From: a virus
IMG/VR virus record: IMGVR_UViG_3300025506_000008
Coordinates: 1 to 21,916 of that record
Length of the DNA stretch: 21,916 bases
Strand: one strand, 5' to 3'
The notes under the pieces are model-generated. The model was given only the letters and a program-made list of their open reading frames with translations. It was not told the DNA's origin and made no database searches. Shown one piece after another: positions 729-10,603 of this stretch. Position 1 is the first letter of the stretch; each line of letters begins with the position of its first letter. Made by a program: the position numbers and the translations under genes.

Positions 729-3114
729 CTTTCTCTCCCAGCTCCGGGATCACGTCGCACTCGCAGTTGGGGTGCGCCGGGGGTGCGTCGTCCCCGGAGG
801 AAAAGTCCTGGTCCAGGGGGATCACGCCCTCGTCGGCGTTGCCGTTGCACTCGTCGTCCTGGGGGTGCTCCGAGCCCAGGATCCACTTCTTGCCGCTCAC
901 CAGGCCGCTGGCCCTGTAGGCCATCATGTTGCCCTGCACGTCGGCCTTGGCGATCTCGGTGCGGGCGATCATGTCGCAGCGCCCTGCCGAAAAGCCGAAA
1001 TTATCCTGGAGGACGCCGCTCAGCCGGGCGGTGCTCCAGCCCTCCTGGACCGCCTGGGTGACGTCGGCCCGCAGGTAATCACGGGTCGACTCCTCGATCT
1101 TGGTCACCAGCTCCGCGGCCCGGTTTTCGGCCCACTCCACCGCCAGCTTGTTGACCTGGCTGGTGATGGCGGAGTCCTCGAAGTCGAGCTGGACAAAGGC
1201 CGCCAGGCCGCCGTTTTGGGCCGCCTGGGCCAGGATGGCGGCAACCTCCTTGCGGGTGGCGGCGATGCCGGCCAGGTCCAGGTCGGCCAGGAGCTTATCG
1301 ATCTTTTCATCATCGTCAGTTTTCAGTAACCGGTGATCAGTAATCAGTGATTTTTCGCCGCCTTGGCCTTTTTTACTGGCCACTGGCCACTGATCACTGA
1401 TAACTTTCTTCAGCCCCAGACCTTTGGCGAGGCTGGCCGCCGCGGCCGGCAGATCGGCCTCGAAAGCCTTTTGAAACAGCTTCTTGATGTCGGCCCGGGC
1501 CTGGGCCATGGGCGGCCGGTCTCTATCTATGGGCTCGATCTTCATTTTTTTTTTAGCGGCCTTATCCAGTTTTTTGCTTTTGTCTTTACTGGCCACTTCC
1601 GGTTCTTCGCCTTTGCCTTTTTCTTTGTCTTTGTCTTTACTGGCCACTGGCAACTGGTCACTGGCCACTTCCGCTTCTTTGCCTTTGCCTTTTTCTTTGT
1701 CTTTGTCTTTACTGGCCACTGGCAACTGGTCACTGGCCGCGTCCGGTCCTCCCGGCTCCGGCTGCTCCTTGCCGATGTCGTCCAGCAGCACCGGCCCGAT
1801 GCCGGGGATGATGATGAAATTGGGGATGCCGTCGTCGTCCAGGCCCCGCTTGGTGCGTATCTCCCGGCGCGTGACGATGCCCGCGGCCACGTCCGAGGCG
1901 TCGATCGTGGCCTGGACGTCCGGGGCCACCGACTCTTCCTCCTGCCAGGCGAACTCCAGGTCGTAGAATCCCCAGTAGCGCCAGATGATGTAATCCATCA
2001 GGTCCTTGATCCACTGCATCAGGGGCTGCAGGCCCTCCTCCAGGGCGGTCTGCTGGACCGACTGGGCCACCGCCCGGTTCATCTGGCGCACGAAGGGGGT
2101 CGGAGGGAGAGAGTGGCAGTAGCAGACCACCCGGGCCAGCCATTCGTCGAACTCGTCCTTGAGGCCCTCCAGCTTGGGGAACAGGGGCTTGGCGCCGGAG
2201 GGCACGAAGATCATCCGCCGGCGCATGGCCAGGTTGCCGCTCAAGAGGGCGTCCCAGTAGCCCTGGAACTCCCCGATCTGCGCCGCCGACCATTCCTGGG
2301 GGCACTCGGCGAAGCCCTCGGGGATGCTGCCCTCCATGTAGAAGTTGAGCTGGAAGAGCTGGCGCCGCAGGGCGATGTTGACGATCATGATGGTCTGCTC
2401 CACCGGGGAGTAGCCGTAGAGCCTCCAGGAGCGGGGGTTGCGGGGGACGTAGACCAGCTCCTCGGCGGTGTATTCGGTGGCCGGGATGCCGTGGATGATC
2501 TGCTGGTAGGCCGGGGCCGGGGGCACCGGGGTGCGCCCGTTGCCGTCGATCACCAGCTTGATGGTGGCGCCGTCCACGATCTCCAGGGCGTAGAGCTTGT
2601 CGTTCAGGTTCTGGCGGGGGTAGATGGCCGGGGCGTCGATGACAAAAACATCTTCCATGAGCATCCTGAGCCAGGCCTGCCAGGAATGGAGCCGGTCGGG
2701 GAAGCGCAGAAAGGCCTCGATCTCCTGGACCCGCTTGTCGTCCGGGGCCACGTCGGCGCCCTCCTTGCCCCTTATGCTCGTCTTGAGCTTGACGAGCTGG
2801 TCCTTGCGGGTCTCGATGCACAGCCGGGTGATGTCGTGGGATTCCGCCAGGTTGCGCAGCAGCTCGAAGGGGAGGTAGCCGGCCCGGGGCTGGATGGTGA
2901 GGTTGTAGCCCACCGGGAAATCGTAGGCCCGGGCCGCGGCCTCAGGGGGCGCCTGGGGCTGGATGGGCACGGACGGCCCGAACCAGTCCTCGGACTGCTG
3001 GGGCGCCGGCAGGGTGCGCATGCCGCCGGCCGCCAGGTCGGCGAAGGCCGGGTCGATGGGCGTCCGCAGGGCCTGGGCCCTTTTCAGGATGCCGGTATCG
3101 GAGTCGCGTTCCAT
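724..3114 (-). CDS. Portal protein fused to MuF-like head morphogenesis domain
   Basis: This is a 796-residue protein. Residues about 65-450 read as a phage portal (connector through which DNA enters the capsid): a YNLTIQPRAGYLPFELLRNL start, the aromatic-rich stretch YGYSPVEQTI near 234-243, and the helical QSVQQTALEEGLQPLMQWI region near 351-369. Residues about 605-796 read as a phage Mu gpF-like (PF04233-type) domain, with ARTEIAKA at 717-724 and the closing HPNCEC motif at 781-786. In Mu, portal (gp29) and MuF protein (gp30) are separate genes; here they are joined. The joining segment (about 450-605) is Lys/Glu/Asp-rich and is largely translated heptamer array (461-514 and 571-603). The ATG at 3114 lies directly against an intergenic array with no visible Shine-Dalgarno. 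The family assignment is from motifs and context. Confidence 0.85.
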   Translation of the reverse strand: MERDSDTGILKRAQALRTPIDPAFADLAAGGMRTLPAPQQSEDWFGPSVPIQPQAPPEAAARAYDFPVGYNLTIQPRAGYLPFELLRNLAESHDITRLCIETRKDQLVKLKTSIRGKEGADVAPDDKRVQEIEAFLRFPDRLHSWQAWLRMLMEDVFVIDAPAIYPRQNLNDKLYALEIVDGATIKLVIDGNGRTPVPPAPAYQQIIHGIPATEYTAEELVYVPRNPRSWRLYGYSPVEQTIMIVNIALRRQLFQLNFYMEGSIPEGFAECPQEWSAAQIGEFQGYWDALLSGNLAMRRRMIFVPSGAKPLFPKLEGLKDEFDEWLARVVCYCHSLPPTPFVRQMNRAVAQSVQQTALEEGLQPLMQWIKDLMDYIIWRYWGFYDLEFAWQEEESVAPDVQATIDASDVAAGIVTRREIRTKRGLDDDGIPNFIIIPGIGPVLLDDIGKEQPEPGGPDAASDQLPVASKDKDKEKGKGKEAEVASDQLPVASKDKDKEKGKGEEPEVASKDKSKKLDKAAKKKMKIEPIDRDRPPMAQARADIKKLFQKAFEADLPAAAASLAKGLGLKKVISDQWPVASKKGQGGEKSLITDHRLLKTDDDEKIDKLLADLDLAGIAATRKEVAAILAQAAQNGGLAAFVQLDFEDSAITSQVNKLAVEWAENRAAELVTKIEESTRDYLRADVTQAVQEGWSTARLSGVLQDNFGFSAGRCDMIARTEIAKADVQGNMMAYRASGLVSGKKWILGSEHPQDDECNGNADEGVIPLDQDFSSGDDAPPAHPNCECDVIPELGEKE
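1303..1404 (-). repeat. Heptamer array 2, in frame inside portal-MuF gene
   Basis: It encodes portal residues about 571-603, including ISDQWPVASKK and SLITDHRLLKT. Units of both orientations flank a GGCCAAAAAAGG-type core. Where an intergenic copy would read CAG TGA, this copy reads CAG TGG (Gln-Trp), which keeps the frame open. Confidence 0.88.
1573..1738 (-). repeat. Heptamer array 3, two tandem in-frame copies inside portal-MuF gene
   Basis: Two near-identical copies each encode SDQLPVASKDKDKEKGKG (portal residues 461-478 and 485-502), and a shorter third copy encodes VASKDKSKK. Each consists of four heptamers (GGCCAGT, GACCAGT, TGCCAGT, GGCCAGT) followed by a purine-rich core. The inverted arm is absent. 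The frame is kept open by CAG TTG in place of CAG TAA or TGA. Confidence 0.9.
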
Positions 3115-3523: not shown

Positions 3524-3634
3524 TCAGTAAACCAGTGATCAGTGATCAGTGGCCAGTGATCAGTAAAAGCAAAAACTGATTACTGGTTACTGATTACTGA
3601 TTACTGATTACTGATTACTGGTTACTGGTTACTG
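3524..3634. repeat. Heptamer array 5 (intergenic)
   Basis: CAGT-type units, the core AAAAGCAAAAAC (around 3565-3576), then eight inverted units to 3634. The last three codons and the stop of the terminase gene (Ser-Asn-Gln-TAA) are made of array units. Confidence 0.93.
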
Positions 3635-5268
3635 CTCAGCCCGAGCCGTTCCCTTTCCAGCGCGGCCATGGCCTTCTGCTGCTTGGACTCCTGGGCGTGG
3701 GCCACCCAGGCTTCCGCCTCCGCCTCCGGCATTCCCGGCGGCGGATGGAGTTTCTCGTATTCCGTCTTGTAATAATCGAAGAGGCCCTGGCCGGCGCCGC
3801 CCTCCAGGAGGGAGATCGCCCCCTCCAGGGCGTCGGGGCCGTCGTCGTGCACCGTCTTGCTGGGGAAATAGAGGAGCTGCTCGATGAGCAGGTCCTGGTC
3901 GCCCCGGCCCGGGCAGAAGCGGATCTGCCCCCGCTCCACCCAGGAGGAGAGCCGCGAGATGCGGGTCTCCTTGTTGGCCTTCTGGGTGACGCCCCGGGAC
4001 GGCAGGGTGATGTGGCGCTCCCGGCCCATCTGCTCCACCTCCCGCATCAGCAGCCGCTGGAAGAGGTTGTCTTCGATCCCCAGCAGCCAGTAGCGCCAGT
4101 CCTGGTGGCGGACGAACAGGGCCCGCAGGGCCTCGTCCAGGCTGTTCTTGCGGATGTAGGCGTCCAGGACGTAGTAGATCATCTCCTTGCAGTCCAGGCC
4201 CACGGTGAGGATGGCCTTGTAGTCGGCGCTCTCGTTGGTGCTGATGGAGGGGTCGAAGAAGCCGGAGACGACGAGCTCCTTGCCGGCGAGTTCCATCGGG
4301 TCATAGTAGCGCAGCCACTGCTCCTGGAAGACCCCGCCTTCGTTCACCGGGGCGTTCATCTTCTCCCGGTTGAAGGCGAGCGTCCCCATGGCCGCCTTCT
4401 GTTTGGCGAGCACGGCCAGGGGGAACTTGTCGGGCCAGAGGGCGGCGCCGTCGGGCTGGATGGCCCGGTAGAGGGTGCGGCGCCAGTTGGCGTAAGGCTC
4501 CTCCTCGGAGTGGATGGCGATGTAGAGGGCCGATTTGCGGGCCAGGATGGTGCCGATCCACAAGAGGCTGCCGTCGGTCTCCAGGGCCGGGTAGACCGCG
4601 CCGGTGACCCAGTCGAGGAGCTTGCGCACCAGCTCGGGGGAGCGCACGTTCTGGTCGTTTTCCATGTCGTCCAGGACGACCAGGTCGGGGCGGTGCTGCT
4701 TGTGCTTCAGGCCGCGCAGGCGCTGGCCCCGGCCCCGGGCCATGAGGCGGACGCCGTTCAGGGCGACGAAGTCGTTCACCGCCCAGTTGTCCCGCACCAG
4801 CTCCCCGAAATCGCACTTGAGCCGCTCGTTGTAGAGCAGCTCCAGGTAGAGGTAGCCGGTGAGGTCGCTGGCCAGGTCCTCGGTGTCGGAGCCCAGGATG
4901 ATGAAATGGCGCAGCTTGTGGACGATCTGGTGCAGGGAATAGCCGAAGCTCACCAGGGTGGACTTGGCGAACCCCCGGGGGGCCGCGGTGACCGCGGGGG
5001 TCACCACCTCACCTATGCCGGGGCGCCGGTCCACCTGGGCGATGAGGTCGTGGTGGAAGGGGGCCGGGGGCTCGTTGAAGTAGTGGGGCAGGTAGGTCTC
5101 GAAAAAATAGAAATGGTCGGTGCGGCTGCGGGCGCGGCGGGCCTGTTTGGCGGCCTCGGAGACGTCGGCGAAGGCCGCGACCTCCCGGAACAGGCGCCCC
5201 AGGATCTCGTCGGCCCGGGCCTGGAACTCCTTCTTGGTGAACTTCTTTTTGAGGGTCAGTTCGTCCAT
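3622..5268 (-). CDS. Phage terminase large subunit (Mu gp28-like)
   Basis: This 548-residue protein is the DNA-packaging motor ATPase and nuclease. A Walker A-like loop APRGFAKST is at 96-104, Walker B DLVVLDD at 195-201, and a WIGT coupling segment follows near 237-240. The C-terminal nuclease half begins near FFDPSIS (about 338-344) and ends with an acidic DDGPDAL motif, as in RNase H-fold terminase nucleases. The length suits the family. The ATG at 5268 lies flush against array units (CTGATCACTGAT before ATG), and I see no Shine-Dalgarno. The last residues, SSNQ, and the stop are encoded by the next array. The small subunit candidate is 4 kb upstream at 9423-9875, separated from it by a secreted-protein insert, whereas Mu keeps the two adjacent. 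Confidence 0.92.
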   Translation of the reverse strand: MDELTLKKKFTKKEFQARADEILGRLFREVAAFADVSEAAKQARRARSRTDHFYFFETYLPHYFNEPPAPFHHDLIAQVDRRPGIGEVVTPAVTAAPRGFAKSTLVSFGYSLHQIVHKLRHFIILGSDTEDLASDLTGYLYLELLYNERLKCDFGELVRDNWAVNDFVALNGVRLMARGRGQRLRGLKHKQHRPDLVVLDDMENDQNVRSPELVRKLLDWVTGAVYPALETDGSLLWIGTILARKSALYIAIHSEEEPYANWRRTLYRAIQPDGAALWPDKFPLAVLAKQKAAMGTLAFNREKMNAPVNEGGVFQEQWLRYYDPMELAGKELVVSGFFDPSISTNESADYKAILTVGLDCKEMIYYVLDAYIRKNSLDEALRALFVRHQDWRYWLLGIEDNLFQRLLMREVEQMGRERHITLPSRGVTQKANKETRISRLSSWVERGQIRFCPGRGDQDLLIEQLLYFPSKTVHDDGPDALEGAISLLEGGAGQGLFDYYKTEYEKLHPPPGMPEAEAEAWVAHAQESKQQKAMAALERERLGLSSNQ

Positions 5269-5363: not shown

Positions 5364-5768
5364 TCATTTAGTAATCTGGTCGAAGATCATGATCACCCGG
5401 GCATTGGCCGGGGTGGCCAGGGTGCAGTCGCTGGCCGCGATATAGGGATAGCAGACGCGGCCGTGAAAGCCGCTGTCGGCCAGCCCCCCGCCCAGGATAT
5501 CCTTGCCGTGAAATATTTCCGGGCCGGTAGGTGAATAATTCCGGACCACTAAAACGTCGTTGACCGCGCTGGGGAAAAACTTGATGGCGACCAGGCCGGC
5601 GCCGTTGGGCATCTTGCCGTCAGCCATGCCGTTCCAATCAGTGGAGCCGTCTAAAATTATGCTGATATAGAGGCCGCCGGTGGAGATGGTCGTGGCATTG
5701 GCCGCCCAGGCGGCAGAAAAAAAGGCAGAGAGGAACAAAATGCCAAATATGGAAATTATTTTTTTCAT
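5364..5768 (-). CDS. Exported protein of unknown function (134 aa)
   Basis: The start is well supported: AAAGGAG lies 7 bases before the ATG. Residues 1-22 form a signal peptide (MKKIISIFGILFLSAFFSA, then AWA) with cleavage likely after AWA. The mature part is about 112 residues, with beta-type patterning and two Cys (CYPYIAASDC) that could form a disulfide in the periplasm. It resembles small secreted proteins of unknown role; I do not recognise a family. It lies just downstream of the large beta-helix gene (26-bp gap) and shares its lower GC, so the two may have arrived together. An accessory fiber or secreted cargo role is inference. Confidence 0.78.
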   Translation of the reverse strand: MKKIISIFGILFLSAFFSAAWAANATTISTGGLYISIILDGSTDWNGMADGKMPNGAGLVAIKFFPSAVNDVLVVRNYSPTGPEIFHGKDILGGGLADSGFHGRVCYPYIAASDCTLATPANARVIMIFDQITK

Positions 5769-5793: not shown

Positions 5794-8355
5794 TCAGTTG
5801 CTTAACCCCAGGCCCAGGGTCAGTCCTCCTTTCCCCCCGCCGGCAGGGCTTTCATAAGCCCCTATCGCCGGGTTAGCGCTGGGCGGAAAGGGAACGGCCC
5901 AACCAAGATAATCAGCAGTCAGGCCCACATTTGTCCCGGCGTTCCGGCAAGGAGACGCCTGCGCTATTTTCAGGCTCGCGGCGCTGGCCGGATTCACATT
6001 GACCGCCTGATAAGTCTTCCCGTTGGTGGCCGGGTTGCTGCCGCCGCTGGCGTGGATGTAGACGTAAGTGCCGTCCCAGTACCAGCTACCGGCGTTGGCC
6101 TCGACGTTGGCGATGGAGGATTGGGCAGTCAATACTGCACCATTCTCGGTGATTGCATCACAGTAGGCAGATGCAACCTGATAAGTATAATAATACTGAA
6201 TGGAATAAGTAACACTCAGGTAGGGGCAAAAATATCCATTGCCGATAGTCATAAGACAGCCAGCAAAACTCCGACTAACCCCATCATTGGTTGTTGTGTG
6301 TTGTAGAACCCACCCATAATTAGGATTGATGGAATTAATAATATTCTGAATATCAGTTACTAATTGGGAACCACCGCCAGAATATATAACACCAGATCCG
6401 CCATTGCTTAATGTGCAAGTAGTGGATGCAGATTCATCAGTCCCACTACCCATAGCTCCACCAGTAGTCCAGCTATTAGTGCCATTGTAAGTATTCCAAG
6501 TAGCACTGGAAGTCCAATTGTCCAGACACCTTTTTACCGTTATTGTATCCGTGCTGCCAGCCTGCACCGCATTTAGGTAAAGTGTTGCCGATGTTATGGT
6601 CTTGCCGGACAAGTTGCTTATCCCCGTAAATTTTATCAACCCATTCCACCAGTTACCCGCCGATGGCGCATCAACAGTGATACTATTATTACCACTATAA
6701 GAATAAGCTGGGTCATTTTCCCTTAACTCTGTGTCAGTCTCCCCAGAATAGGTATTTGCGGTGCCATTCCCATAGCTGGCAGAGTTTTGGCCGATAGTTG
6801 CACTTCCGGAACCCGCAGTTAATGACCAGCCAGATAATGTTAAAGGAGTATATCCGACAAATTCGGGATACGTAGTCAGAGAATGAGTATCCAGACCTTG
6901 CCCTTGCCAACTTGCGAAGGTGCAGGGGGAGTTGTTATATTGGCAGACGTTCGCCAGCACTGGGTAAATATCGTTATAGTCGGAGACGTTGTGGCCGATG
7001 GTGGAGGACATGTTCAGGGGATAGGGGCCGCAATCCAGGAAGATATTATTCTTGACGGTGAAATAATCTCCGCCATTCCAGTAAGCACCCCCAGCGCAAT
7101 TTACTGCCGTGTTATTTTCAACCACGCTGGGAGTAGTTGACCATTGGCTGGCATGAAGATTGAAGGCCCCGCCGGGGCAATTAACCAGGAGGTTATAAGT
7201 AAATTGATAACTGTTCAGGTTGGAACCGCCGCCGCCCGCCGCTATTGCTGCCCCACTTGGGCCGGTAAGGTCATGGATATAGTTTCTATTTACTGTATTG
7301 CCGGTGGCCGGAAAATTACCTCCAGTCCATAAATCAATCCCGCAGCCACTAACCATGCCGGAGATTTCATTGCCCTGGATCAAGGCGTTCTGCATATTCT
7401 GGCAGGATATCCCGTCGGAGTCAAAGCCGGTAGCCCCGCCACCGCCGCCTGGTATCTGATTTGTATGGAGAAACTTGCAGCCGATAACTGAGCACCACAG
7501 ATTAGACCCCTCACCATTGTTGTTGTCATCTTGACCTGCAAAGTAGATATTATCGGCACAATAATTCCAGGTGCTACCGGTTATGCTAACATGGGTATTG
7601 GGAACAGCCGCTTGAACAAAAGCAAGGTGGGCACTAAGCGTTACAGTTGCAGGGGTTGTTCTGCCAATTATGGCCAAAGTATAGGGTGGAGTTGATGCGG
7701 CCTCCTGCATGGCCCAAACAACATTAGCCTGAGAACTACCGTTAATCGCCGCCAGCAGTGCGGTGCTTATTGTCTGTGCACTGTCAAGTGCCCCGGAAGT
7801 ATAGGAACAGGCAATCCCATTTACGGTTATCGTATAAGTGGTTAATCCGACAGCAGTTATGGCTATGCCCTGGCCATGAGCATATAAATAAATCCCGACT
7901 CCGAGATTATTGAAATTACAACCTTGGAAATTAATATAATTGCAGCCCCCACCTCCTGTGGAATTAAAAGCGTAGCCTGACCCAAAGAAAGCCAGGTTCT
8001 GAAAGTTAAAATAGTTTATCGGGTTACCTGGGCCTCCATTGTAGAGTGGAAAACAATCATCGGCCCCAACCCCGTTAATGCGAATCTCGTGATTAATCGG
8101 AGTACCAGTAGTCGGTTTGTAATAAAGAGTTCCTGAGCCGTTATAGAACCAACGGGGAGTCGCCGTAGAGCTATTGGCGGCTGTCGCCAGGGTGTCGTCA
8201 GTAGCCGCCGCAATTAATAATCTGTCCTCCAAGACCATACAGCTGACGTTAGTTACCCATCCTCCACCAGCTACGCCGGGGGGTGACTGACTGCCAATAG
8301 CAAGAGAATAGATGCCACCCCCCAAACTGGTCCATCCGGAATTGGTAATTACCAT
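5794..8355 (-). CDS. Right-handed beta-helix / DNRLRE-domain protein (surface or fiber-like)
   Basis: The 853-residue frame counted from ATG 8355 is Asn/Gly/Ser/Thr-rich. Residues about 110-500 carry repeated beta-helix rungs with short NN or GG turns (NALIQGNEISGM, VVENNTAVNCAGG, YFTVKNNIFLDCG). Residues about 540-720 look like a DNRLRE-type beta-sandwich (LRENDPAYSYSG, TSATLYLNAVQAG, WTSSATWNTYNG). The C-terminus returns to a typical beta-helix ending with PAIGAYE at 829-835. The ATG at 8355 has no ribosome site, and the same frame is open for 87 more codons upstream with family-like sequence, so the true N-terminus is probably further right (see 8356-8616). GC is visibly lower than in flanking genes. 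A receptor-binding, polysaccharide-binding or secreted role is inferred. Confidence 0.82.
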   Translation of the reverse strand: MVITNSGWTSLGGGIYSLAIGSQSPPGVAGGGWVTNVSCMVLEDRLLIAAATDDTLATAANSSTATPRWFYNGSGTLYYKPTTGTPINHEIRINGVGADDCFPLYNGGPGNPINYFNFQNLAFFGSGYAFNSTGGGGCNYINFQGCNFNNLGVGIYLYAHGQGIAITAVGLTTYTITVNGIACSYTSGALDSAQTISTALLAAINGSSQANVVWAMQEAASTPPYTLAIIGRTTPATVTLSAHLAFVQAAVPNTHVSITGSTWNYCADNIYFAGQDDNNNGEGSNLWCSVIGCKFLHTNQIPGGGGGATGFDSDGISCQNMQNALIQGNEISGMVSGCGIDLWTGGNFPATGNTVNRNYIHDLTGPSGAAIAAGGGGSNLNSYQFTYNLLVNCPGGAFNLHASQWSTTPSVVENNTAVNCAGGAYWNGGDYFTVKNNIFLDCGPYPLNMSSTIGHNVSDYNDIYPVLANVCQYNNSPCTFASWQGQGLDTHSLTTYPEFVGYTPLTLSGWSLTAGSGSATIGQNSASYGNGTANTYSGETDTELRENDPAYSYSGNNSITVDAPSAGNWWNGLIKFTGISNLSGKTITSATLYLNAVQAGSTDTITVKRCLDNWTSSATWNTYNGTNSWTTGGAMGSGTDESASTTCTLSNGGSGVIYSGGGSQLVTDIQNIINSINPNYGWVLQHTTTNDGVSRSFAGCLMTIGNGYFCPYLSVTYSIQYYYTYQVASAYCDAITENGAVLTAQSSIANVEANAGSWYWDGTYVYIHASGGSNPATNGKTYQAVNVNPASAASLKIAQASPCRNAGTNVGLTADYLGWAVPFPPSANPAIGAYESPAGGGKGGLTLGLGLSN

Positions 8356-8616
8356 TGAAGTAGTAAAGGTGGGTTGTGTGCCGGTGCCGTAACTGCCAAA
8401 GGTAATGGGAAGGCCCGCAGTGCCGTTGATATACTCTACACTTGCGCCCTGTCCAGGATAAAGCCCCGTCGTGCCGCAAGCGTAGAGGACCGAATCACCA
8501 GCCGAAGGCGCAATTTGGGGGCCGGTCTTCCAGGGAGTTGACTGGCTCTGGGCCTGGGTGGAAGTGTTTGAATCGTTGCCGGTGTCGGCGTTGATGTAAT
8601 AAGTAGGGTCGGCGGC
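8356..8616 (-). other. In-frame upstream extension of the beta-helix protein lacking a standard start codon
   Basis: These 87 codons are open and continuous with the frame at 8355. They begin AADPTYYINADTGNDSNTST and continue STPWKTGPQIAPSAGDSVLY, which is how secreted parallel beta-helix proteins typically begin (YY[IV][ND]..TGNDSN...PWKT...AGD). No in-frame ATG, GTG or TTG is seen in it. Upstream, the same frame meets TAG (8617-8619) and then the 52-codon membrane ORF. Either the TAG is read through, it is a nonsense mutation, or an unusual start is used. Confidence 0.75.
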
Positions 8617-8775
8617 CTAGTGGACCATCTGCGCCAGATAAGCAGGAAGGAGTTTCCCGGCGTACCGGTCTATGGGCCAGGAGGCCCGCCAGCCGAAGTG
8701 CAGCGTCACCAGCAGCCCGATCAGGCCGAGGTAGGATAGAGTATAGATGAGGGCGAGCTTGATGGTTTTGCTCAT
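8617..8775 (-). CDS. Small membrane protein or detached signal-anchor of the beta-helix protein
   Basis: This is a 52-residue ORF starting MSKTIKLALIYTLSYLGLIG. One hydrophobic helix spans about residues 6-26, followed by FGWRASWPIDRYAGKLLPAY and ending QMVH before TAG. A GGAAG ribosome site precedes the ATG. It is in exactly the same frame as the beta-helix ORF, with only the TAG between them, so it may be the N-terminal membrane anchor or signal of that protein rather than a separate gene. As a free-standing protein it would be a single-pass membrane peptide of unknown role. Confidence 0.6.
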   Translation of the reverse strand: MSKTIKLALIYTLSYLGLIGLLVTLHFGWRASWPIDRYAGKLLPAYLAQMVH

Positions 8776-8794: not shown

Positions 8795-8861
8795 CAGTTA
8801 TCAGTAATCAGTAATCAGTGATCAGTAAAGGCCAAAACTGATTACTGATTACTGATTACTA
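8795..8861. repeat. Heptamer array 7 (intergenic, short)
   Basis: Four to five TATCAGT/AATCAGT/GATCAGT units, the core AAAGGCCAAAAC, then three inverted units. It lies between the 8888-9250 gene and the 8775 start. Confidence 0.92.
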
Positions 8862-8887: not shown

Positions 8888-9250
8888 CTAACCCTGGACC
8901 ACCAGATTGTTGATAAAGGCCACTGCCTGGGGGTTAGACAGTATAGGCGCCAGAAGAGGGCAAGCAGCGCCCAGATCGGTGAGAGCAGCTTGTACTTGCG
9001 CCGCAGTGACTGGTTGGTTATTGGCCAGGGCAGCCAATAGATCAATCAGGTCATCAGATGCCTTCATAGCCGGCAGTAAGATATTGACCTGGGCTGCTGC
9101 AAGGTTAAAACCCAACACCGCCATTACCATTGTGGCCACTTGAGCAAATATAGCAGAGTTTGACTCAGCCTCATCTGACAGGGTTTTTAGACATGTCAGA
9201 ATAGAAGCAAAAGGGGCCAACATTGTAGAAAGAACATTCTGTGTCGCCAT
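8888..9250 (-). CDS. Ala/Leu-rich hypothetical protein (about 120 aa)
   Basis: Two ATGs are possible (9256 and 9250). The second is better placed behind GGAGG (8-base spacing). The protein is helical and hydrophobic, rich in Ala, Leu, Val and Gln (FAQVATMVMAVLGFNLAAAQ, then PVTAAQVQAALTDLGAACPL), with few charges and two Cys. It may be a membrane-associated or self-assembling helical protein, but I recognise no family. It belongs with the lower-GC insert between the two terminase subunits. Confidence 0.65.
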   Translation of the reverse strand: MATQNVLSTMLAPFASILTCLKTLSDEAESNSAIFAQVATMVMAVLGFNLAAAQVNILLPAMKASDDLIDLLAALANNQPVTAAQVQAALTDLGAACPLLAPILSNPQAVAFINNLVVQG

Positions 9251-9274
9251 TTTCATTTCCTCCAGTTGGGTTAA

Positions 9275-9427
9275 TAGTTATCAGTTATCAGTTATCAGTA
9301 ATCAGTGGCCGCGTTGCCTTCGTTTGTGCCTTTACTGATCACTGGTTACTGGTTACTGGTTACTGATCACTGGTTACTGGTTACTGATCACTGGTTACTG
9401 GTTACTGGTTACTGGTTACTGGTTACT
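9275..9427. repeat. Heptamer array 8 (intergenic, long)
   Basis: TATCAGT/AATCAGT units run to 9306, then the GGCCGCGTTGCCTTCG-type core, then about fourteen inverted units dominated by ACTGGTT with periodic ACTGATC. The TAA of the terminase small subunit gene (9423-9425) is formed by the array. Confidence 0.93.
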
Positions 9428-9875
9428 CCAAACTCGCGAACCAGCCCCGGATGCGCTCGCTGTGCATCTGCAGCTCGCCCGCCGAGATCTCCTCCCCCTT
9501 GAGGAAGTCGGTGTAGCGCCGCATCACCTCCACCGCCATCACCCTGATGTCGGCCCCCTGGCGCTCCACGCCCTTGATGGCCGCCACCGCCTTGTTGATG
9601 GCGTCGAAGGTGGCGTTGTCCAGGATGCCGTCCTCGGCATTGGCCTCCAGGCGTTTGAGGTAGACATGCAGGCTGGCCCGCATGAGCTCCGCCAGGTCCC
9701 GGGGCGACGTTTGGTGCGCCCGCCGTTTTTCGTCCCAGCCGCCCTTGATCTTCCATTTGTAGAGCGTGTTCTCGCAGGGCGGCAGCGCCCCGGCGATCTC
9801 CTTGATCGTCAGGTTCTGGCGGACGAACAGGTTCTCGGCCTCGGCGAACCAGGCCGCTTCCTTCTCACCAGACAT
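9423..9875 (-). CDS. Terminase small subunit-like protein (DUF1804 / Mu gp27 type)
   Basis: This is a 150-residue protein. Residues about 20-51 form a helix-turn-helix (NLTIKEIAGALPPCENTLYK, then WKIKGGWDEKR), the usual N-terminal DNA-binding domain of phage small terminase subunits and DUF1804 proteins. The rest is helical (SPRDLAELMRASLHVYLKRL and RVMAVEVMRRYTDFLK), compatible with oligomerisation and large-subunit contact. The ATG overlaps the end of the preceding gene by 11 bp, implying translational coupling. Together with the large terminase it would recognise and cut packaged DNA. The assignment rests on HTH position, length and context. Confidence 0.75.
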   Translation of the reverse strand: MSGEKEAAWFAEAENLFVRQNLTIKEIAGALPPCENTLYKWKIKGGWDEKRRAHQTSPRDLAELMRASLHVYLKRLEANAEDGILDNATFDAINKAVAAIKGVERQGADIRVMAVEVMRRYTDFLKGEEISAGELQMHSERIRGWFASLE

Positions 9876-10501: not shown

Positions 10502-10603
10502 TCAGTGATCAGTAATCAGTAATCAGTAATCAGTGATCAGTAATCAGTAATCAGTGATCAGTAAAGGCAAAAACTGATTACTGTTTACTGTTTACTGATT
10601 ACT
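10502..10603. repeat. Heptamer array 9 (intergenic)
   Basis: Alternating GATCAGT and AATCAGT units, the core AAAGGCAAAAAC (10564-10575), then inverted units ACTGATT/ACTGTTT. The final residues SNQ and the stop of the holin-like gene are encoded in the inverted arm as read from the minus strand. Confidence 0.93.

Follow-up and report, generated by a model that had tools for sequence, protein, structure and literature searches.

The locus and its accessory insert

The window analysed here is the whole stretch of 21,916 bases from the virus record IMGVR_UViG_3300025506_000008 (IMG/VR), part of a phage contig. Along its minus strand lie an ORF of the size of a DDE transposase, a TniB/MuB-like ATPase, GemA, an endolysin, the terminase subunits and a portal-MuF fusion, and it is on account of this gene content that the phage is regarded as Mu-like. 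The portal and Mu F-like domains are carried by a single ORF of 796 aa (3114-724). A search of GTDB contigs with a terminase profile found relatives that are 55-70% identical, in MAGs of Desulfobacca, Desulfobaccales and other Deltaproteobacteria. In most relatives with a recognised small subunit the end of the small terminase gene lies within ~80 bp of the large terminase gene, and because the two are adjacent in this way the block that separates the small subunit (9423-9875, minus strand) from the large subunit (3622-5268, minus strand) in the window is interpreted as an accessory insert. This block (9422-5269) contains four genes, namely an ORF of 122 aa, an ORF of 52 codons, a beta-helix frame and an ORF of 134 aa, and is absent from most of the related phages checked. 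GC3 is ~0.49 in the 122-aa gene and in most of the beta-helix gene as against mostly 0.7-0.94 in the other genes. The 122-aa ORF (8888-9256, minus strand; GC3 0.48), the upstream member of the insert, has a TAG terminator of its own and matched nothing in Pfam, PHROGs or NCBIfam.

Reading frame around the stop codon

A single minus-strand frame runs from the 52-codon ORF (8775-8617 with its stop) through the TAG (8619-8617) into 940 open codons (8616-5797). The first 87 of these (8616-8356, with first residues AADPTYYINADTGNDSN) are followed in the same frame by ATG 8355 and 853 codons to TGA 5794, so that the four parts named in the original prediction share one frame at exactly the coordinates given there. 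No ATG, GTG or TTG occurs between the TAG and 8355, as had been claimed. The codons that follow the stop are GCC GCC GAC CCT ACT TAT TAC ATC, and none of the five that separate it from the conserved YY of the domain (see below) is a start codon or one substitution short of one. The lack of a ribosome site at ATG 8355 was likewise confirmed: 99.9% of random positions in the window show better anti-Shine-Dalgarno pairing than this codon, which has the poorest ribosome site tested.

The intact frame would comprise 993 codons with a single stop. There is no second lesion in the 940 codons past the TAG and therefore either the damage is recent or the frame is still under selection. The stop lies exactly between the hydrophobic leader and the domain, a place that a nonsense mutation arising at random among ~990 codons would rarely hit. 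Three further IMG/VR contigs from other metagenome sets (L002, L003 and L004), whose sampling sites may be related, match the window at 100% over 6.8-11.2 kb with the TAG included. Since the identical TAG is fixed in four contigs, a sequencing or random assembly error is ruled out. A frameshift was rejected because all parts are in one frame, and translational coupling because there is no start at the TAG or just past it. In-frame succession was not accepted by itself as evidence of one gene, because elsewhere in the window genes of 131 aa and 281 aa (21232-19979) share a frame across a TAG and yet are ordinary neighbours, the second with its own ribosome site.

The 87 codons and the beta-helix protein

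By base composition an open stretch of 87 codons is expected in ~7% of cases and is by itself weak evidence for coding. The evidence that the stretch is coding comes from homology. A cap profile made from 30 viral relatives, with the window excluded and the sequences cut before the seed motif, matches residues 5-50 past the stop with E 1.5e-7, as against 0.016 for the best-scoring of 200 shuffled sequences. The family came to light only when IMG/VR was searched with a degenerate DNA pattern of the cap motif PITFG-x-YG; 38 IMG/VR proteins obtained in this way share YYV..GND..G...WKTI.KVN..F..GDSILFKRG..WRE.LTVPSSGS.G.PITFGAYG. Direct searches with the beta-helix protein against phages, plasmids, IMG/VR, GTDB contigs and the genomes of the host class (29) and phylum (395) returned the identical contigs but no other full-length relative.

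A profile of the family (31 caps) matches solved GH136 lacto-N-biosidases (7v6m, 2.1e-21; 5gqc, 3.3e-16). With the lacto-N-biosidases of PDB entries 7v6m, 6kqs and 5gqc the window protein has in common the homologous cap motif YYV..GND..G..PWKTI..GD..L..G....PITFGAYG; unlike them it is phage-borne, carries a DNRLRE domain and has a cap severed from any start codon. The likeness to GH136 that was tested, and found, is homology of the cap, as alignment over the full length is too divergent. From these comparisons the 87 codons (8356-8616, minus strand) are predicted to form the cap at the N-terminus of a GH136-like right-handed beta-helix domain together with its first coil, with no claim that the protein is a GH136 enzyme. 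This is in agreement with the earlier claim that they look like a real beta-helix N-terminus, and ATG 8355 is thereby placed inside the cap domain. As expected of a nonsense-interrupted gene, coding homology here runs on past the stop with no usable start after it. An AlphaFold model made with 27 aligned relatives reached pLDDT ~80 at residues 1-50, its best part, and one of the 940 aa made without an alignment gave pLDDT 33. Structure searches with the aligned model produced no significant match; GH136 entries were ranked at the top.

The remainder of the protein (5794-8355, minus strand), from the mid-domain ATG 8355 to TGA 5794, includes repeats of the parallel beta-helix type, a DNRLRE domain (4.8e-11) at residues 627-783 counted from the TAG, and a C-terminus that is weakly choice-of-anchor-Q-like. 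The profile matches behind these assignments include TIGR03804 (1.7e-4) and NF041518 (0.006).

The hydrophobic leader and the partner gene

The 52-codon ORF (8620-8775, minus strand) encodes a basic N-terminus (MSKTIK), a single hydrophobic segment of 20 residues, LALIYTLSYLGLIGLLVTLHFGW, and a hydrophilic linker. The TAG does therefore part a hydrophobic N-terminal segment from the beta-helix domain, as originally proposed. GC by codon position (0.58/0.40/0.81) gives the ORF a coding pattern that resembles the other genes of the phage, and its start at 8775 has a weak ribosome site (anti-SD pairing -3.6 kcal/mol). Searches for homologues of the 52 aa gave only the identical contigs or chance matches, several of them within unrelated proteins. 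The suggestion raised with the original prediction that this ORF might be a conserved separate gene consequently gained no homologue in its favour. Because no relative was found, the assignment of the 52 codons to the beta-helix gene is drawn from frame, position and hydrophobicity, and it is likely but unproven that they are, now or formerly, part of the beta-helix protein.

The 134-aa protein encoded on the other side of the beta-helix frame (5364-5768, minus strand) has a good ribosome site and an N-terminal signal peptide, and is 32% identical to the product of a gene in IMG/VR contig L137 and 29% identical to that of one in L011. Its 22-aa signal peptide ends exactly where the homologues in other phages start, and in view of this added segment on the partner the 52 codons may plausibly be a matching leader for the beta-helix protein. 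In contigs L137 and L144 (IMG/VR) the partner gene directly abuts a beta-helix gene, on the strength of which the pair is regarded as a phage module. These contigs resemble the window in having a beta-helix gene next to a partner gene of the 134-aa type; they differ from it in gene order, the partner preceding the beta-helix gene, in the start of both proteins directly at Met without a signal sequence, and in having no interrupting stop. N-terminal signal peptides were observed in several phage genes, that of the partner included (5768-5364 and 513-1 in the window; 844-1242, 1239-2336 and 2654-3034 in the 31.4 kb sister contig L186).

Where relatives of the cap start

The relatives of the cap number 68, all distant, with 38 viral and 30 chromosomal proteins, the latter from 395 Desulfobacterota genomes. 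A start codon precedes the cap in every one of the 65 with a visible 5' end. Among the viral proteins 19 have a start codon no more than 6 codons from the cap; a hydrophobic leader precedes it in 10 and other sequence in 6, and 3 run off the contig end, so that a start is missing from none of the 35 in which the 5' end can be seen. The frames of the 30 chromosomal proteins are all unbroken, and the cap nearly always follows a signal peptide or anchor. The window phage is alone in having a stop before the cap with no start after it; none of the 68 relatives does. The comparison with intact homologues proposed at the outset was in this respect informative, every relative with a visible 5' end starting ahead of the cap; an uninterrupted copy of the leader-cap junction itself was not found among them. 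The nearest in layout is L148, a protein from a genome of the host class (Desulfobaccia), in which an uncleaved signal anchor, a linker and a cap at approximately residue 46 form one unbroken ORF. This is the arrangement that the window gene would have if the TAG were removed.

Test for TAG recoding

In the window and the sister contig, TAG is the terminator of seven other genes. In six of these a second in-frame stop lies 0-7 codons on, and the seventh is followed by a gene with its own ribosome site and ATG; among the eight genes that end in TAG, only the 52-codon ORF has neither a second stop close by nor, behind it, a gene that starts independently. No tRNA, including a suppressor with a CUA anticodon, was detected in the window, the overlapping contigs or the pieces of L186, which may together represent an incomplete phage genome, and no other gene broken by an internal TAG was noticed. 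Pyrrolysine is in use among other Deltaproteobacteria (PMC8318568). None of 29 Desulfobaccia genomes, mostly MAGs from the presumed host class, has a PylS above the TIGR02367 cut-off, which one control genome did exceed, and insertion of pyrrolysine at the TAG was rejected on this basis. The possibility of a TAG-recoding phage, raised in the original prediction together with the search for a suppressor tRNA, is not supported by these results.

The sequence 3' of the stop showed no more RNA structure than shuffled sequences (z -0.76 over 86 nt, pseudoknot-free folding), there was no Rfam match to a known RNA element, and no stop is conserved at the same place in the 68 relatives.

Interpretation of the interrupted gene

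The locus is probably best explained as a beta-helix gene, carried by a Mu-like phage, that is interrupted by one functional TAG with a hydrophobic leader in frame ahead of it, the gene being most probably silent, or expressed by leakage alone, rather than read in a new genetic code. The accessory block between the terminase genes contains a two-gene module in which a GH136-like beta-helix protein is paired with a small partner. Both would lie behind N-terminal membrane-targeting segments, namely the signal peptide in the case of the partner and the 52-codon hydrophobic leader in that of the beta-helix protein. The TAG between leader and cap would stop translation as it appears to do elsewhere in the phage and, given a working stop, translation from 8775 would yield a membrane peptide of 52 aa. 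Having no start of its own, the beta-helix domain would be produced at most through rare leaky readthrough, and we infer that the product is currently not made. The nonsense-interrupted genes described in bacteria (PMC7918605) are similar in having a lone in-frame stop in an otherwise intact frame with no other decay; the window gene is unlike those cases in that it has no orthologue pair with and without the stop from which selection on the frame could be gauged. Of the two explanations originally offered, a nonsense-type interruption fits best, and readthrough or suppression has found no positive evidence in the form of a stop in a relative or an RNA structure.

The position of the stop at the boundary would suit either functional readthrough or a recombination junction. 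Regulated readthrough, by which the phage would make mostly the 52-aa membrane peptide while a few ribosomes go on to produce a membrane-anchored beta-helix protein, is unlikely, though it is the foremost of the alternatives. It would account for a single stop at a domain boundary of an otherwise intact 993-codon frame, for the leader-cap layout shared with L148 and for the identity of the stop in four contigs, and in-frame stops under purifying selection have been reported in bacteria (PMC7918605); it has against it the lack of a stop at this place in all 68 relatives, of structure past the stop, of a suppressor tRNA in the window or sister contig and of PylS above the cut-off in the 29 host-class genomes. 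Its specific form, in which a leaky TAG at the boundary sets a low dose of anchored beta-helix protein and the free 52-aa peptide is the main product, is more doubtful. Ranking between these two is the reading that the 52-aa ORF stands by itself, as a gene for a small membrane protein that ends at its natural stop, and that the beta-helix gene lost its start or signal peptide on being joined to it, leaving 940 codons as a headless fragment. The stop exactly at the joint, a GC3 of 0.81 in the 52 codons versus 0.49 in the beta-helix bulk, and several phage relatives in which the stop of a small gene abuts or overlaps the beta-helix start are in agreement with such a junction. However, GC3 is still high for ~50 codons past the TAG, which places the composition border away from the stop, no relative of the 52-aa ORF was found, and an in-frame placement would arise by chance in 1 case in 3.

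Far less probable than any of these is that the beta-helix protein starts at ATG 8355 or uses a non-standard start codon, for example ATC 8595. Some genes of this phage, among them TerL and the portal, also lack a Shine-Dalgarno site, but ATG 8355 lies within the conserved cap and has the worst pairing value, and ATC 8595 is downstream of the conserved YY of the cap. Reassignment of TAG throughout the phage (genetic code 15 or similar) would explain one internal TAG in an intact frame and is the least credible of the readings, in view of the seven other genes that end in TAG with a further stop or an independently started gene behind them, the lack of a tRNA and of any other TAG-broken gene noticed, and the many broken genes and suppressor tRNAs of code-15 phages (PMC9523058). 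The TAG-recoded crAss-like phages (PMC9523058, PMC10607447) are comparable in having an in-frame TAG within the gene of a phage surface protein; in the window, unlike in those phages, one gene is affected, TAG terminates elsewhere and a suppressor tRNA was not found.

Returning to the preferred reading of a gene interrupted by a functional stop, the locus illustrates the means by which a solitary in-frame TAG of a phage contig can be separated from code reassignment by way of the TAG codons that end other genes, the search for a suppressor tRNA and the starts of relatives. It also reveals a mobile two-gene beta-helix module whose members, in the lineage of the window phage, lie behind export leaders. 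Were readthrough to prove true, this would be a rare case of a DNA phage in which leakage through a stop codon doses a membrane-anchored surface protein.

Heptamer repeats and phase variation

Phase-variable loss of the surface protein, also suggested in the original prediction, receives no support: as all copies are identical there is no sign of phase variation, and neither a switchable repeat nor an invertible segment lies between the two parts of the gene. A heptamer-repeat hairpin (8795-8860, no strand assigned) is situated immediately upstream of the 52-codon ORF, with none between that ORF and the beta-helix. Arrays of 7-base units (CAGTAAT/CAGTGAT and relatives) are found between most genes, often facing inverted arrays with which they would form hairpins, for example at 8795-8860, 9276-9427, 3533-3634 and 10502-10603, and also in L186. 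There are 15 and 20 such arrays on the two strands of the 21.9 kb, compared with 0-4 in related phage loci. The TAACTGA repeats of Beggiatoaceae (PMC4679880) resemble these heptamers. The repeats extend into coding sequence, at 1588-1747, where they give ASDQLPVASKDKDKEKG in the portal-MuF protein, and as VISNQ at the ends of several genes.
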